From a virus: 26,133 nucleotides of DNA. This document shows, piece after piece, positions 12,886-20,154 of this stretch. A program made the position numbers and the translations under genes. The notes under the pieces are model-generated. The model was given only the letters and a program-made list of their open reading frames with translations. It searched no databases and was not told the origin of the DNA. The first letter of the stretch is position 1, and each line of letters begins with the position of its first letter. Location: the IMG/VR virus record IMGVR_UViG_3300006929_000103, positions 1-26,133 of that record; one strand, 5' to 3'.

Positions 12886-13296
12886 TTATAATATTTTAAT
12901 CATTTCATGTGTATAAGACGAACCTTCTACGTATCCTATACTTTTATATGCGCTTGCTAACGATTGATTTTTTATCAATGCGTAAACATATTTGTTATCT
13001 AAACTTTCCGCAAACAATGTAATTGTTTTAATTAACAATAACAATGCTGTCTTTCTAACTTTTTTATCTTTAAAATGAAAGTCCGATATAATCCAATCAC
13101 ACCATGCTACTTGAGCATTAGTGGTATACATAAACCCTGCACATATAGGTCGGTCTCCATAACTAACCATAAAACCACCTGTACCATTTAACGGTAAAAA
13201 TTCTTTAGTTGGCGCAGGCCATCTCCAGTCTTTCCACCAGTGACGCAAATAATCGTCATAATCACTTGGCTTTAATGGTTCTATATTTAATTGCAT
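12886..13296 (-). CDS. GNAT-like N-acetyltransferase in the virion operon, 136 aa
   Basis: The first possible start is a TTG at 13305, but the ATG at 13296 gives MQLNIEPLKPSDYDDYL, the usual GNAT opening strand and helix, so I place the start there. GGFMVSYGDRPICAGFMY (residues 40-57) fits the beta2-beta3 hairpin, AWCDWIISDFHF (64-75) fits beta4, and NQSLASAYKSIGYVEG (110-125) fits motif B, where the N...Y...GF pattern is typical. The acetyl-CoA loop normally reads R/Q-x-x-G-x-G/A; here the spot has KDKKVRKTALLLLI and no glycines, so cofactor binding may be altered or lost. The gene sits between tail-appendage and internal protein genes with only 2 bases before the next start. A target among virion or host proteins is possible but unknown. 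Confidence 0.75.
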   Translation of the reverse strand: MQLNIEPLKPSDYDDYLRHWWKDWRWPAPTKEFLPLNGTGGFMVSYGDRPICAGFMYTTNAQVAWCDWIISDFHFKDKKVRKTALLLLIKTITLFAESLDNKYVYALIKNQSLASAYKSIGYVEGSSYTHEMIKIL

Positions 13297-13302
13297 TTTA
13301 AG

Positions 13303-13310
13303 CAAAGATA
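13303..13310 (-). promoter_or_regulatory. TATCTTTG, candidate Bacteroidetes-type -7 box upstream of the GNAT-like gene
   Basis: The minus strand reads TTATTATCTTTGCTTAAAATG, an exact match to the TAnnTTTG consensus 6 bases before the start codon. A -33 TTG is not evident at 19-21 bases upstream. If used, the transcript would have almost no leader. Support is weak to moderate. Confidence 0.35.
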
Positions 13311-13318
13311 ATAAAAAA

Positions 13319-14098
13319 CTATGGAAAACTTTTCATCACACTGCTACCTACAGCAAATAGCTCTACCGGTGCATTTGAACTGTTAGTAAGTTTAAACTCC
13401 ATATAATATCCTCTCATACCATATGATTCAGCTAATGTATTATTAACAAACATTATGAAGTCTCCAGTAGCTGGTGCTGTTGCGGTCGCTGCAGAACTAT
13501 CAACAGTTATAGTGTTATTTACTCTATCTAAATTACTTACAACTCCAGCTTCTACAGGCGCTTGCCCATTAACTAATGTGTACACTGTAGCTCCTATTGT
13601 AATTATATTTCCTATGGGTACACCAAAGGATACAACAAGTGCATTATTTGGACCAACTACATTTGTGTTCACACCTATACCATTACTATATCGTAATGCA
13701 TAATTTGTAATACCATCGTTGTGTCTTATGTAACCATACCACTCTCCTTCTTTTTGTTCAAAGTCTATATTAGGTAAAGCAGTATTTACATTACCCTGAC
13801 TTAGATCAGTAACTAATGATTCACAACTCCATTCAGAATTACTTTCAAAAGATATTGTCTTAAATAATTTAATACTTAATGATGGTTCAGGGTTGAATAC
13901 ACTGGTCATTGACGATGGAGTAAACTGATTGTAAAAAGTATTTCTTAAGGGATTTACATTATGTCTATATAAGTTCCCTCCTGAAAATGTATATAAGTAT
14001 GCATTCATACCTCTTATATATTCAGGATAAAAACTATAGAAAGAAGGCCAACCTTTTACGCCTTCATCATATGTTAATGTATAAACTTCACAAGCCAT
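13319..14098 (-). CDS. Tail appendage/structural protein, 259 aa
   Basis: The N-terminus has the pattern TLTYDEGVKGWPSFYSFYPE, MNAYLYTF and GGNLYRHN (residues 7-47), then SMTSVFN and KLFKTISFES. I recall this series of motifs from virion proteins of uncultured marine phages and crAss-like phages, where it follows the large hub protein. The middle has KEGEWYGYIRHND, and the C-terminal half is beta-rich with Gly/Thr/Val repeats such as NTITVDSSAATATAP, typical of tail fibres or spikes. There are no catalytic motifs. It lies 10 bases downstream of the 421-codon appendage gene frame and upstream of the GNAT-like gene. A trimeric fibre or tail-attached plate is the likeliest role. Confidence 0.72.
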   Translation of the reverse strand: MACEVYTLTYDEGVKGWPSFYSFYPEYIRGMNAYLYTFSGGNLYRHNVNPLRNTFYNQFTPSSMTSVFNPEPSLSIKLFKTISFESNSEWSCESLVTDLSQGNVNTALPNIDFEQKEGEWYGYIRHNDGITNYALRYSNGIGVNTNVVGPNNALVVSFGVPIGNIITIGATVYTLVNGQAPVEAGVVSNLDRVNNTITVDSSAATATAPATGDFIMFVNNTLAESYGMRGYYMEFKLTNSSNAPVELFAVGSSVMKSFP

Positions 14099-14108
14099 AA
14101 TTACAAAT

Positions 14109-15353
14109 TTAACAATTTCCTACTGTTGTTACTAAACCGTTGCTATCAACTACTATATATATTCTATTCGGTGATGTTCCTCCAAGATAATAATATCCTG
14201 CCGTTAAAGTCGTGGCACCTGAAGCAGCAGGAAATACTACATCACTTACCGCTGGTAACACTCCATTACCATCATGATAATAAGTTTGATTAGCTACAGG
14301 ATTTCCAGCACAAACATCATTGAATACACCGTTAACACTTGAAGCATAAGCAGTTCGTGATGCACCACCACTACAAAGTGATGAACTAACTATCACACCA
14401 TTTCTAACACCCAATGATAAACCTCCTGGTATACTAAAATATTTTAACGTATTTGTATCATTTAAATAAATGCTGCCATCTGATTGAGTAAAAACAAAGT
14501 TACCTATCTCTGGCAAAGTATTGGTGTCAACAGTAAATGGAGGTGCTGTTCCAGTTGCATTACGCACAAAATAATAATCTTGATCATTTGTGCCACATGC
14601 TGTTGTATTACCTAACACAGAACCTTTGAAAGCTACTAAATCTTGTGGACAACTTATTTGCCATCTAAACAATGTACCATTTAGTGGTCCAAATATTTGT
14701 AGATTAAGTACATCTTGAGTGATTACATTTTTTGGTATAACCATTGTGTATGTAGGTGATCCACTTGAAGCTGTACCCACTTGAGAGTTAACAACTGTTA
14801 TAGTTCTTGTAGCACCGGTTTGTGAATAAGTACCACTAATAAGCTCATACTCATCTATGTTTGTATGTGGACTACCTGTAATTAATCCGCCATTTGATGC
14901 ACCCACATATGTTGGGACATTGTTCTGAGATAATATACCCGCATAGTCGACTGTTGCACCTGCACCGTTTACTAATGTAACACCGTTATGATTGTCATTA
15001 CAAGTAAGTCTTTTGTATGGCAGGCTGTTAAAGTATGCGATTATACCATCAGGTATTGATGCTCCCAAATAAGCATATAAAACTACTGCACCTGTATCGT
15101 TACCAACATTAATATTAGCGTCAAACCAACCACGTGTATTTGAAATAGATACTGATACTCCGGTATCACATGCAACCAAACATTGATCACAATTTGATGC
15201 AGATAATAGTACACCATTTAGTTGTTGCCTAACAACTCCACTACCCGCATAGTAACCATCTGGCGCTAACGTTGTTAAAGTAGCATTTGTATACACAGCA
15301 GTTGCTGTTTGAAAACTGTTTCCGTCAAAATAATATGTTCCTAATGTACCCAT
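14109..15353 (-). CDS. Modular tail appendage (probable receptor-binding) protein, about 414 aa
   Basis: The frame opens at 15374, but the ATG at 15353 (MGTLGTYYFDGNSF) lies 4 bases after the stop of the hub gene and avoids the overlap, so I prefer it. The protein is beta-rich, with low charge and many Thr, Asn and Gly, as in fibres. Three modules of one type are visible: near the N-terminus (TYYFDGN to LLSASNC), in the middle (DYYFVRN to VIVSSSLC) and at the C-terminus (QTYYHDGNG to LVTTVGNC). Between the first two lies RGWFDANINVGNDTGAV with IPDGI, resembling a GAV...PDGI motif I know from phage tail proteins that may bind carbohydrate. The last module is repeated at the end of the neighbouring hub protein. 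Receptor contact is inferred. Confidence 0.72.
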   Translation of the reverse strand: MGTLGTYYFDGNSFQTATAVYTNATLTTLAPDGYYAGSGVVRQQLNGVLLSASNCDQCLVACDTGVSVSISNTRGWFDANINVGNDTGAVVLYAYLGASIPDGIIAYFNSLPYKRLTCNDNHNGVTLVNGAGATVDYAGILSQNNVPTYVGASNGGLITGSPHTNIDEYELISGTYSQTGATRTITVVNSQVGTASSGSPTYTMVIPKNVITQDVLNLQIFGPLNGTLFRWQISCPQDLVAFKGSVLGNTTACGTNDQDYYFVRNATGTAPPFTVDTNTLPEIGNFVFTQSDGSIYLNDTNTLKYFSIPGGLSLGVRNGVIVSSSLCSGGASRTAYASSVNGVFNDVCAGNPVANQTYYHDGNGVLPAVSDVVFPAASGATTLTAGYYYLGGTSPNRIYIVVDSNGLVTTVGNC

Positions 15354-15582
15354 AATTCTATGTAAAACATGCACCTACAGCGACAACCACTCCTTCTGAG
15401 TTGACCTGCATGAACATTGTATTGCTAATTTTATAAAATCCTATTGGTAAAGGAGAAGCGGCACCGCTATTGTTTCCTTCACACGTGCTGTTGCTATATA
15501 CTAAATCATTTACAACAGGTAATGCATTTAATCCACTATGATAATAAGTATTACTTAATGGTTGCTGACAAGCTTCAGCGTG
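14112..15582 (-). repeat. Repeated YYH...VGxC module at protein level, four copies in two adjacent genes
   Basis: Copies lie at about 15361-15582 (end of the 1598-aa protein), 15189-15341, 14373-14597 and 14112-14312 (appendage protein). The shared pattern is (T/D)YY(H/F), then LPxxxDxVY or LPEIGNFVF, then a Gly-Tyr/Phe-Tyr strand, then a strand ending (N/S)xGVVxxVGxC. The first copy of the appendage protein and its middle copy are the most divergent. A Cys before the module and the final Cys could pair. Confidence 0.65.
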
Positions 15583-18500
15583 TGTCGCTGCTACATCACC
15601 AGCTGCAAACCCGACACAAGGCCATGTACAAGTACAGCATGCATCAGATGCAGAACTTGCATCATAACATAATTTTTGTGCGCCAATATCTCTTAAATCC
15701 CAAATCAAATATAAGAAACTATTTGAAGTTGGTAGGTTTAAAGCTGGCGTTGTTGTAGAATTTACAGATGCTTTGTATAAATTTGACGAAGGTTGTTGCA
15801 CCTGTGCATTTGGTATTGTTGATGACAAGTTTAATAATGTTTGAACGTCTGATAAATTATTTGCATATGCAGTGTTCGTTGATAAGAATCTCATGTTATC
15901 ATCAGGGAAAGACCAATTGTAATCGTCAAAACCTATTTTGTTAATTCTCATTGTAACAGTAACTCCTTCGTATGGAAAGACACCGTTTGATCTAAATCCT
16001 GTTTGTGAATTAAATGTGCTAAACAATAGGTTACTATTCCCCAGCTCTGCAGAGACGGAATCAATAGGACTTACAATAGTAGAATCATTCCATTGATGTT
16101 CTACGTGTATAAACTTACCACTGTCTTGTACTGAATTTATAACACATTTAACAATAGTTATAGGATCTTGAGTAGGACAGGTCGGTGTAATATCAAACTC
16201 TGCAGCTCCTCCTACTGGGGTTACAGTTATAACTGCGGTCGTAGGTGCTGCCTGAGATTTATTAAAACTAAAGAAACCGCTTCCGGTAACATTACCTGAA
16301 GTTGTATTAGTGCCATTCCAATTTACATTTATATTAACAGTTCCAGATGCTATTACATATTCTATTTTTGTAGAAGTATCTACGATAGTTCCAAAGTCTA
16401 TTGTATAAGTTTTTGCTGTAGTAGTAGCGTCTTGATGCACTACAGAACCACAAGCTAAAATTACCGGTGGTGTAGGAACTTGTATACAGTTCATTCCCAA
16501 CACGTACTCATCCATATATGGATCGTAACCACCTAATTTTTGTGTATCTAATCCTAATTGAAACTCATCTCTAAACCAAGATCTCATACCATCTTCTGAT
16601 ATAACAATTAGCTGATCGTTAACTGAGTTTCCTTTTAATTGTATAACTGATGTTCTTTTAACGTCAGTAAAGTAATAGCTATCCGCATAATGCGCAAAAC
16701 TTTCTGGATTAAAACTAATACCATATTCTTCTGTTCTTGCTATTTGCGTACCTAAAACTGGTGTTGAAGTTGTTAAAGCACCTCCACCAGCAGCGTCACT
16801 AATTAAATTTTTAGACGCTAATACATATGATATTTTATCTTCTTGTAATGTAAGTATATCAGTTTCTCTACCATGTAATACTTGTATAGGTCCAAAGCTT
16901 GTTTCGCATTCTTTAAAATTTTGTAAACCTAAATTAAATTCATTTAAGTTATTAACGCCCGAATTACTACTATATACTCCACTATAAGTTATATCAGCGA
17001 ACCTGTCTGCTTCTGCAAAATCTTCAGCAGATACACCTAAAACTCTTTGACCTATTACCACACTTTTGGTGGCTATGTTATCTTCTATCTTAAAACTTTC
17101 TACACCATTACCAAAAGTAAAACAATCCATAAAAGGTAAAGGCACAACAGCTGGTTGACTTGCAGTTTGATTTTGTGATTCATCTGCACTACCCGCTATA
17201 TGAAACCCATTAGTTATTGGTAAAGCTTCAGCAGAGTCATAGTAAAATTCGGCTGACACTTCTGCTGGTTCAGTTTCAAAAACCACTAAACTATTTGCTC
17301 GAGTTACAATAATCTCTATACTTATTCTATTGTTAAGTTTTGCATTACAACCAGGCACACCAGATACAAGTGCTAAATATAGAGGAGAGTTTACATCTCC
17401 GGGTGTAGCTTGTAAAAACTGAAATGTTTCTGTAGCAAAGCCATTGCAAAATGCTGAAGCAGCAATACCTCCTGGCCCTCCATAATCTGTGTTATCTCCA
17501 TTGAAGTTTCCATTGGGAGTTCCTACAGTTGTGTTGTAAAAAATTTGTTGATCTCCTTCGAGTTGGCCGGGACTCGCATTACCATGGTTTACATTATCTC
17601 CTACCCACCACGCTCTAAAGTCAGTATAATCTGCAGAGGCGGTAAATATTTGATTCCATTCAAAATGATACCCCTCACAACCTGATGATCTTCTGTTTCT
17701 TTTTTGTTTTATTCTTATATCTATTACACTACCAGCTGGTATACTATAATTAGTGGTAACATAAGTACCTGTACTTGGTTCAGTAAAAGTAAATAATGGA
17801 TACCCTAACTTATGTCTACATATACTATTTCTGGCACTTGCATATTTTTTAACTCCATTGTCAACAAGAGAATCGTCTTGAATAGTTGCGGAAAAACCAG
17901 AGGGTTTTATTTCCATATATAAACCAGCTAACTGGTTTGAACCTTGCCCAAGTTCATTGTCAGTTGCTAAAAAGTCTCTTGATTGACCGGACACATTTAA
18001 AACCTCTGCTTCTACCACTGTGCCAAGAGGTCCTGTCACATCTGTTTTAACAAACAATTTAGTTCCAGTCTCTACTTTATTTTGATTTTCTCCTTCTAAC
18101 TTAAAGAACACCATATTGTCTGATGGTCTTGTATAAAAGAAATTTGTATAAACTATATTGTAATCTCCTTTGTTTGGTTTAACAACAAATTTATATTTTG
18201 TTGCCCACGAAGGTGGCAAACTATTTATTGTTGCTAATATTTTATTTTGAGTAACACTGTTTTCAGGCGGTATATAAATCGTGTTAAATTCAGAAACCTG
18301 TACTGTAGATGCTCTACCATACTCATCCATATATACTATACCTGTTTCGTAATCTCTATTACTATGTAAAGAAGAAGTATCAAACGTACTTGTAAAAAAA
18401 GCTGTACCAGAAACTATTCTAAAATATTCATACATGTTTGTTGGTCCAGTATTACTTCTATATTGTATAGCTATTGTTTGTATTCCTATATTATTACTAC

Positions 18501-20154
18501 CTGGAGATGATGTTATAGAAAAACCTTGTTGAGTAGATGAAGATGTTATACCACTGTTTTCTTTTGTAAACGTACAGTTTATAGCTGGTGCAACTACAGT
18601 AGCATTAAACTGATCTGTAAATGATCTACCAGTTGATGCTTGAGCTATTGTCTGAAAGTTTTGAGATCCTATTGCGTCTTTGAACAATGTACTTATAGAT
18701 AAGTCGTATACTGAAGTATAATCTTGATCTAATGTTATTTCTACAGATAAACTGAAATTAGCATTTTCAAAATTTACATTATCAATGTAACACTGTTGAG
18801 TAGTTGTACCGCTTAGGCCTTGATGTTTAAGATTTAAATCAAGAGTTAGTGTACTACCTGCTTTTAATTTTGTAGCTATATTTGACAAATTAAATGTCAT
18901 CAGCGCATTTGTTGCTGTTACACCACCGCCTACTGGATCTACAGAGTAAGTGGTACCGTTTGATGGTACACCTATTGGCAGCTCTAAAAAGTCTACACGA
19001 TTAGCCAACAGTTCAGTAGAAAAATCAATACTTATATCTTGACCGTTTGCGTTAGTAATATCATAACCATCAGTATAATTACCGAACATTAATCTATTAC
19101 CCATAATAGTTTGACCTTTAGCTATTTTAGGTACATTATCATATAAACGTAATAATTCGTCAGCTCCAAGTTGTGAATAAATTTTACTGTTTGTAAAAGT
19201 AAAACTTTGTACAGTATCATCTGCCCACCCATAATCACTTTTCTTAAACCTTTCGATAACAAAAATACTATTAGTGTTAGAGTCTTTATATAATAAATCA
19301 ATTTGTTTTACTCTGCTACTACCTGTACCAAAATCTATTCTAACTGCATTGTAGGAGTTAACCATACCTGCATTGTTAAAATTTTTGGTGTCAAATTTAA
19401 AATCTCCTGGTTGAAAAGCTGGATTAGTAAATAATGACGTAGCACTATATTCATTATCTAAGTATCTGTATCTATAAGCAAAGCTTAAAAACCTGTCCTT
19501 TAAATAATTTTCTCCACCAGCTACTTGTAATAGTTCAAGCGAAGGTGCTGGTAAAGGTGTGTATGTACTTGACCCTGTTTCAAAACCTGGTATTTTTACA
19601 ATAACATTTAAATCTTCATCAACTATACCATCGACTCCTGCATTCGATGCAAGAGTGTAAGCTCGTTTTACATTTATTTTTCTTGGCGGATTTTTATCAT
19701 CAGTAAAAAACAACAAGTCTTCTATCTTATTGACAGCGTTTATTAAAAACAATGGATCAAAATTTAGAGTAGAAGGGTTAGCTGCATTACCAGCTGCTGT
19801 TACTACATGGTATCTTAAAGAGGTTGTTTCTGTATTAAAAGAAACTATCATGTCTACTATACCTCCAGGCGCAACTGCGTTTGCTGGATCATGGACAAAC
19901 CAATACATAGTTTCATTTGCGTCATCTGCATAAGCTCCTATACATGTTGCTTGCGTAGAAAGATTTTGATTTCCAAAACGTAATGTAGTTAATGGTAAAT
20001 TACCACGAGTGTTTTCTACAGCACCAACCTCAGTAGTTTCTGTAGATCCCGGTCGTACGTTCATAGCATCAACATACTCACCAGGCGGTAGAAGTCTTTC
20101 ATCTACCGACTTGTTCATTCGTCCTAAAATGAAATTGGTATTTACTAATGCCAT
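15358..20154 (-). CDS. Large tail hub/stabilisation-type protein, 1598 aa
   Basis: The N-terminus NTNFILGRMNKSVDERLLPP with GEYVDAMNVRPGSTE and VGAVENTRGN is a signature I recall from large tail proteins of uncultured marine phages, placed after the tail-tube genes. It resembles the opening of beta-propeller tail hub or stabilisation proteins (role of P22 gp10 or T7 gp12). Most of the chain is strand-rich with repeated FTxxxxPPRKIN-like and YRYRYLDNEYSATS-like segments. TILTLQEDKISYVLASKN and YYFTDVKRTSVIQLKGN fit propeller blades around residues 1090-1180. An Ig-like region lies near 1240-1330. The C-terminus has a dense cysteine cluster DACCTCTWPC (about 1504-1513) and one YYH...VGAC module (about 1525-1598) shared with the next gene. 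The 4-base gap downstream suggests coupling. Confidence 0.8.
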   Translation of the reverse strand: MALVNTNFILGRMNKSVDERLLPPGEYVDAMNVRPGSTETTEVGAVENTRGNLPLTTLRFGNQNLSTQATCIGAYADDANETMYWFVHDPANAVAPGGIVDMIVSFNTETTSLRYHVVTAAGNAANPSTLNFDPLFLINAVNKIEDLLFFTDDKNPPRKINVKRAYTLASNAGVDGIVDEDLNVIVKIPGFETGSSTYTPLPAPSLELLQVAGGENYLKDRFLSFAYRYRYLDNEYSATSLFTNPAFQPGDFKFDTKNFNNAGMVNSYNAVRIDFGTGSSRVKQIDLLYKDSNTNSIFVIERFKKSDYGWADDTVQSFTFTNSKIYSQLGADELLRLYDNVPKIAKGQTIMGNRLMFGNYTDGYDITNANGQDISIDFSTELLANRVDFLELPIGVPSNGTTYSVDPVGGGVTATNALMTFNLSNIATKLKAGSTLTLDLNLKHQGLSGTTTQQCYIDNVNFENANFSLSVEITLDQDYTSVYDLSISTLFKDAIGSQNFQTIAQASTGRSFTDQFNATVVAPAINCTFTKENSGITSSSTQQGFSITSSPGSNNIGIQTIAIQYRSNTGPTNMYEYFRIVSGTAFFTSTFDTSSLHSNRDYETGIVYMDEYGRASTVQVSEFNTIYIPPENSVTQNKILATINSLPPSWATKYKFVVKPNKGDYNIVYTNFFYTRPSDNMVFFKLEGENQNKVETGTKLFVKTDVTGPLGTVVEAEVLNVSGQSRDFLATDNELGQGSNQLAGLYMEIKPSGFSATIQDDSLVDNGVKKYASARNSICRHKLGYPLFTFTEPSTGTYVTTNYSIPAGSVIDIRIKQKRNRRSSGCEGYHFEWNQIFTASADYTDFRAWWVGDNVNHGNASPGQLEGDQQIFYNTTVGTPNGNFNGDNTDYGGPGGIAASAFCNGFATETFQFLQATPGDVNSPLYLALVSGVPGCNAKLNNRISIEIIVTRANSLVVFETEPAEVSAEFYYDSAEALPITNGFHIAGSADESQNQTASQPAVVPLPFMDCFTFGNGVESFKIEDNIATKSVVIGQRVLGVSAEDFAEADRFADITYSGVYSSNSGVNNLNEFNLGLQNFKECETSFGPIQVLHGRETDILTLQEDKISYVLASKNLISDAAGGGALTTSTPVLGTQIARTEEYGISFNPESFAHYADSYYFTDVKRTSVIQLKGNSVNDQLIVISEDGMRSWFRDEFQLGLDTQKLGGYDPYMDEYVLGMNCIQVPTPPVILACGSVVHQDATTTAKTYTIDFGTIVDTSTKIEYVIASGTVNINVNWNGTNTTSGNVTGSGFFSFNKSQAAPTTAVITVTPVGGAAEFDITPTCPTQDPITIVKCVINSVQDSGKFIHVEHQWNDSTIVSPIDSVSAELGNSNLLFSTFNSQTGFRSNGVFPYEGVTVTMRINKIGFDDYNWSFPDDNMRFLSTNTAYANNLSDVQTLLNLSSTIPNAQVQQPSSNLYKASVNSTTTPALNLPTSNSFLYLIWDLRDIGAQKLCYDASSASDACCTCTWPCVGFAAGDVAATHAEACQQPLSNTYYHSGLNALPVVNDLVYSNSTCEGNNSGAASPLPIGFYKISNTMFMQVNSEGVVVAVGACFT

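Follow-up and report, generated by a model that had tools for sequence, protein, structure and literature searches.

A small cysteine-closed module, repeated in the tail proteins of a 26,133-nt IMG/VR virus fragment (the window, numbered from its first letter), is probably a variable candidate adhesion (receptor-binding) cassette of tailed phages, chiefly phages of marine Bacteroidota. An earlier note on this DNA had described the module at the ends of a 1598-aa protein and of its neighbour, with two looser copies within the neighbour, and both proteins and all four copies were confirmed at the following places.

13319–14098, minus strand: muzzle C-terminal part, a separate 259-aa protein with crAss_MUZ_C at residues 52–126
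14109–15353, minus strand: appendage protein, 414 aa from the conserved ATG (model pLDDT 88.3)
14109–15374, minus strand: longer call of the appendage, 421 aa from an upstream GTG at 15374
14112–14291, minus strand: module A3, appendage residues 362–421 (421-aa numbering)
from near 14354, minus strand: beginning of the full A3 unit, including linker strand and Cys helix
14373–14585, minus strand: module A2, appendage residues 264–334 (421-aa numbering), divergent subfamily
14625–15182, minus strand: appendage beta domain, about residues 65–250 (421-aa numbering)
15189–15344, minus strand: module A1, N-terminus of the appendage, residues 11–62 (421-aa numbering)
15358–16491, minus strand: muzzle extension, residues 1222–1598, with beta-sandwich domains, a Cys-rich stretch and module H4
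15358–20154, minus strand: muzzle-type tail protein, N-terminal part, 1598 aa (phrog_14478, E 3.5e-229)
15367–15555, minus strand: module H4 core, residues 1534–1596 of the 1598-aa protein
up to about 15615, minus strand: full H4 unit, including its strand and cysteine helix

The real start of the appendage is probably the ATG at 15353, since almost every homologue starts at residue 8 of the longer call.

By sequence comparison, H4 and A3 are clear homologues, with 34% identity (E 4e-9) and a local score of 99 against a shuffle maximum of 51 (n = 1,000). The score of A1 against A3 (62) was reached by none of 1,000 shuffles and that of A1 against H4 by two of 1,000. Pair by pair, A2 was indistinguishable from chance against the other copies, and it was accepted as a member only through profiles and the structural model. 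An iterated profile seeded with H4 and A3 only and run over 83 viral loci recovered both A1 (E 5e-4, next 5e-11) and A2 (E 0.014, next 1.6e-8). A second profile, made from the muzzle-end copies of relatives with the window left out, gave A3 54.7 bits and A1 20.8 bits against a maximum of 10.8 among 3,500 decoy sequences; A2, at 9.0 bits, fell under that maximum. Decoy tests with A3 only and A2 only had mixed classes, which makes strict hhalign classes preferable. Between such strict family profiles, hhalign linked the YYH type to A2 (98%, E 1.5e-13) and to A1 (96%, E 1e-8), and A1 to A2 at 43%, a weak link on its own. Together, these comparisons support one family with three branches, the YYH type (H4, A3), the A1 type and the A2 type. 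A1 and A2 are divergent subfamilies, placed by iterated profiles, profile–profile comparison and predicted strand order.

Linker included, a full unit measures about 85–92 aa. AlphaFold2 models of the appendage (from a family alignment) and of muzzle residues 1222–1598 (pLDDT 87.9, from an alignment of 45 sequences) predict a single strand, then a short cysteine-bearing helix, then five strands and the closing cysteine. In the H4 and A3 models the strand and short helix are followed by five strands, the first three at TYYH, VVF/LVY and GYY/FYK and the last running to near the cysteine; the core strands of A1 and A2 come in the same order, so that structure prediction, which the earlier note had proposed alongside the profile search, agrees on strand order for all four segments. 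The helix-region cysteine is present in 141 of 142 distinct YYH-type units, and the sole exception also lacks the closing cysteine. The description of the module as cysteine-closed thus holds, and the co-occurrence suggests a disulfide between the helix and end cysteines. This bond would probably staple the unit, allowing it to fold alone and to be stacked. Stacking itself is seen in the copy numbers, which run from one to seven per protein, with up to five units in 407 aa and seven in 806 aa.

Database searches placed the unit among phage proteins. Pfam and NCBIfam gave no above-cut-off match covering a module, BACON included, and a PDB sequence search returned nothing relevant. A PDB fold search with both models yielded only low-TM beta-sandwich matches, which were not used, and no known lectin or adhesin fold. 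In a viral structure library the appendage model found full-length relatives of the appendage, and a single unit found gp62 of Cellulophaga phage phi17:1. In a tree of 140 units, built on 60 columns and with most forks unresolved, position labels were clustered (18 changes versus 61 in shuffles). Two module-bearing proteins have further parts: a 511-aa protein with five modules (L050:14732-16267) has a middle that matches PHROG baseplate wedge proteins, and another (L142:2438-3934) has, by eye only, a seemingly von Willebrand factor A-like stretch (DVCFIIDYTGSMSG...).

The 1598-aa protein is, on its sequence matches, the N-terminal part of a crassvirus-type muzzle. It matches muzzle-position structural proteins of Cellulophaga, Flavobacterium and related phages, its N-terminus is similar to crAss001 gp44 (hhalign 82%, E 1e-5), and the separate 259-aa protein matches PF25729 (crAss_MUZ_C) at 41.3 bits against a cut-off of 27 (E 2.2e-10). 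In phi38:1 gp97, the match to residues 1–1219 of the 1598-aa protein stops at 1072 and that to the 259-aa protein starts at 1077; the two matches are adjacent, so the window's two genes correspond to one protein in phi38:1. These matches identify a muzzle (nozzle), in place of the 'tail hub' that the protein had been called before. As there is no Pfam match to the muzzle main body (PF25731 crAss_MUZ) in the 1598-aa protein and the chain lies in two genes, we call it a split muzzle relative and do not count it in the Pfam family.

Muzzle core and crAss_MUZ_C form one chain in phi38:1 and the elemo phages and two genes in the window. Residues 1–1221 are the conserved core, and residues 1222–1598 are a lineage-specific extension of 377 aa, found in neither phi38:1 nor elemo. 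In the window's lineage, the muzzle is split after residue ~1221 and extended, and the appendage gene and then MUZ_C follow. Crassvirus-type muzzles are hexamers that bear a gated beta-propeller at the end of the tail. In the crAss001 structure the muzzle is the tail-end gate and probably contacts the cell (PMC10172136). Domain order would put the break within the propeller part, so that the extension would project sideways from the muzzle; a propeller encoded as two chains would need completion in trans. The muzzle of phi13:2 is likewise split, with a cadherin/Ig domain and a beta domain in place of the module. A relative of this beta domain lies in the middle of the appendage (the C-terminus of phi13:2 gp120 aligns with the appendage beta domain at hhalign 97.6%, E 2.8e-12), and the first part of the muzzle extension matches it more weakly. 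With the same split bearing different domains in phi13:2, the break looks like a repeated site for added surface domains.

Other muzzle loci were irregular in their own ways. One contig (L059:8001-12819) has the muzzle frame in three ORFs, through sequencing error or a real split. In Maribacter phage Panino (L167:4807-8720) the muzzle is split elsewhere, at about residue 1093–1138, with MUZ_C fused to the last part, and an intron, a frameshift or a real split are all possible. Directly after MUZ_C, the window has a small acetyltransferase-like gene (12886–13305, phrog_17252), and MW202828 has a gene annotated as acetyltransferase at the equivalent position.

Next, the distribution of the copies differed along the appendage. 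A1 is the best-kept copy, present in 30 of 30 appendage homologues at 60% mean identity to that of the window and N-terminal in nearly every appendage; the A3 region is alignable in 15 of the 30, at 40%. Three phages (L026, L050 and L051) have several appendage genes per genome, each starting with an A1-like unit. Between close relatives the distal part changes abruptly. L011 and L012 are 99% identical in the muzzle, 100% in A1 and 96% in MUZ_C, and the stretch that follows A2 in the appendage, unrelated between the two, has 76 aa in one and 317 aa in the other. In the siphophages phi17:1 and phi18:1, most neighbouring proteins are 98–99% identical, the N-terminus of gp62 93% and its unit 31%; DNA identity runs from 85–97% to 36–62% across the unit and back to 95% past the stop codon. 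The difference between these two isolates therefore lies mainly in the unit. A second variable patch (L168:5162-5341) lies in gp61, the tail gene adjoining the module gene. Module-bearing tail proteins thus have a constant N-terminal part and a hypervariable or swapped C-terminal part. In close pairs, H4 varies no faster than the muzzle body and may not itself be a specificity determinant.

The unit is also exchanged between scaffolds. The muzzle gene of L096 and a tail gene of L091 have only 277 bp in common (81% identity), a segment that ends at both stop codons, with no other alignable DNA in the two loci. On scaffolds unrelated to each other, eight pairs of end units still have 68% identity or more. 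Together, the shared segment and these pairs indicate that the unit is transferred whole, as a cassette, from phage to phage and between the muzzle and other tail proteins. L093 and L088 have a similar 278-bp block plus a homologous region downstream, and therefore represent exchange between related phages. L115 and L119, considered as one module on two scaffolds, were dropped because their loci align over 6 kb.

Units end tail proteins of crass-like podoviruses, Cellulophaga siphophages and other phages, and the module genes lie among tail genes. In phi18:1 and phi17:1, gp62 follows the tape-measure gene and tail genes verified by mass spectrometry (MS), and the one-unit gp16 of Calle_1 sits between tail proteins. 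In five contigs (G398, G407, G408, G410 and G411) the unit occurs at the muzzle and again, within the same phage, at a second tail locus far from it; in four others (G399, G400, G420 and G421), possibly incomplete contigs, the unit is present and no muzzle or MUZ_C was seen. We rejected in part the view that every short module protein belongs to another type of phage, as several of the contigs in question also carry a muzzle.

Receptor-binding specificity usually shows itself in features such as those seen here: a constant base, a replaceable end, a place among tail genes and the exchange of cassettes. Adhesion is therefore our best reading of the module, in line with its adhesive look in the earlier note. 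Units are mostly added at the C-termini of tail proteins, presumably the host-facing end. One unit ends the muzzle extension at the chain break, and three lie in the appendage, which is encoded within the same break. The conserved A1 and H4 would most likely hold or orient the appendage, leaving its distal part as the replaceable, host-contacting end, where replacement of the cassette would change the surface glycan or outer-membrane protein bound. For phages of this host group, suggested receptors include the gliding adhesins SprB and RemA (PMC13288928). The adhesion reading is weakened by the rate of H4, no faster than that of the muzzle, and by the lack of a lectin or adhesin among the PDB fold matches. 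Also against it, gp62 of phi18:1 has no MS/MS annotation, and its three upstream neighbours have one.

It is less likely, in our judgement unlikely, that the module serves docking, with units that bind one another, or some shared partner in the virion, and so anchor accessory proteins on muzzle and fibres, the host being bound by other domains. A1 and H4 would suit this, being conserved and encoded side by side, and A1 takes the N-terminus, the usual docking end, also where one genome has several appendage genes. Yet it is the end units that vary most, and they have been transferred to scaffolds unrelated to each other. Nor are the two copies always paired: MW202828 has an appendage with A1 and a muzzle without the module, whereas in L096, L097 and L104 the muzzle bears two modules and an appendage gene is lacking. 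Obligatory docking of the two proteins through H4 and A1 is therefore rejected.

We consider it improbable that the units bind nothing specifically and act as structural stabilisers or spacers, with disulfide-closed beta folds capping protein ends and stiffening them in seawater. Cysteine co-variation, tandem stacking and the evolution of H4 at the rate of the muzzle body agree with such a role, and crassvirus tails use disulfides (PMC10172136). A cap, however, needs neither exchange nor hypervariability between near-identical phages. Docking and capping suit A1 and H4 more than they do the distal units, and a division of roles along these lines is possible.

Last, the earlier note had mentioned similar modules at the ends of proteins of marine Bacteroidetes and their phages, and had suggested possible trade between virus and host. 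The exchange between genes and viruses is borne out by the L096/L091 segment, but that with hosts is not. A profile search that found six of six viral control records found the unit in none of 395 Bacteroidia genomes, this being a loose first look plus an even sample in which rare host copies could be missed. Two scans of ~85,000 species genomes gave five and three stretches, none shown to encode a relative, using narrower signatures because module alignments A3 and A4 are too divergent for a genome-collection scan; plasmids held no match to the appendage. Regular trade with hosts is thus not supported, and an origin of the module in host surface proteins, with which it would be held in common, is very improbable.

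Returning to adhesion, we tentatively raise a further possibility: a phage-only, self-folding specificity cassette that crass-like phages would shuttle from the ejection gate (the muzzle) to separate fibre proteins or back. One phage would then have the putative receptor contact directly on its gate and another would have the same contact on a fibre, and the muzzle break would be a standing insertion site for adhesion domains. Crass-like phages are abundant, and to our knowledge host recognition at their tail tip is largely not understood. A cassette that sequence alone can reveal, that did not turn up in the bacterial genomes searched and that is swapped exactly at stop codons would help to link uncultured marine phages to their hosts, and would be a candidate specificity element in the isolates phi18:1 and phi17:1. 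The split muzzle marks where such lineages add putative adhesion domains to the ejection gate.

Among known systems, phrog_21885 (PHROGs v4; 145 aa, function not assigned there), which holds gp62 of phi18:1 and phi17:1 and gp16 of Calle_1, has one unit at its C-terminus and matches an L026 appendage (E 4e-18). It differs in being a whole short protein with another N-terminus, it gave no match to the window's appendage, and neither the repeat nature of the unit nor its place at the muzzle has been described for it. The BACON repeats of p-crAssphage resemble the module in being small, duplicated and exchanged in crass-like tail proteins, and are thought to bind carbohydrate (PMC10136315); our units, in contrast, are cysteine-closed and match neither BACON nor any other Pfam family. 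The Crassvirales muzzle (crAss001 gp44; PF25731 plus PF25729) is similar to the N-terminus of the 1598-aa protein and shares MUZ_C with the 259-aa gene, whereas the window has two genes, the extension and an extra gene in the break, and no PF25731 match. The YYH module was not found on the muzzles of phi38:1, elemo or phi13:2. The last of these, gp120 of the Pachyviridae phage phi13:2, has a cadherin/Ig domain (Big_9) instead, but it shares with the window the same break before a separate MUZ_C gene, and the appendage's beta domain is found at its end.
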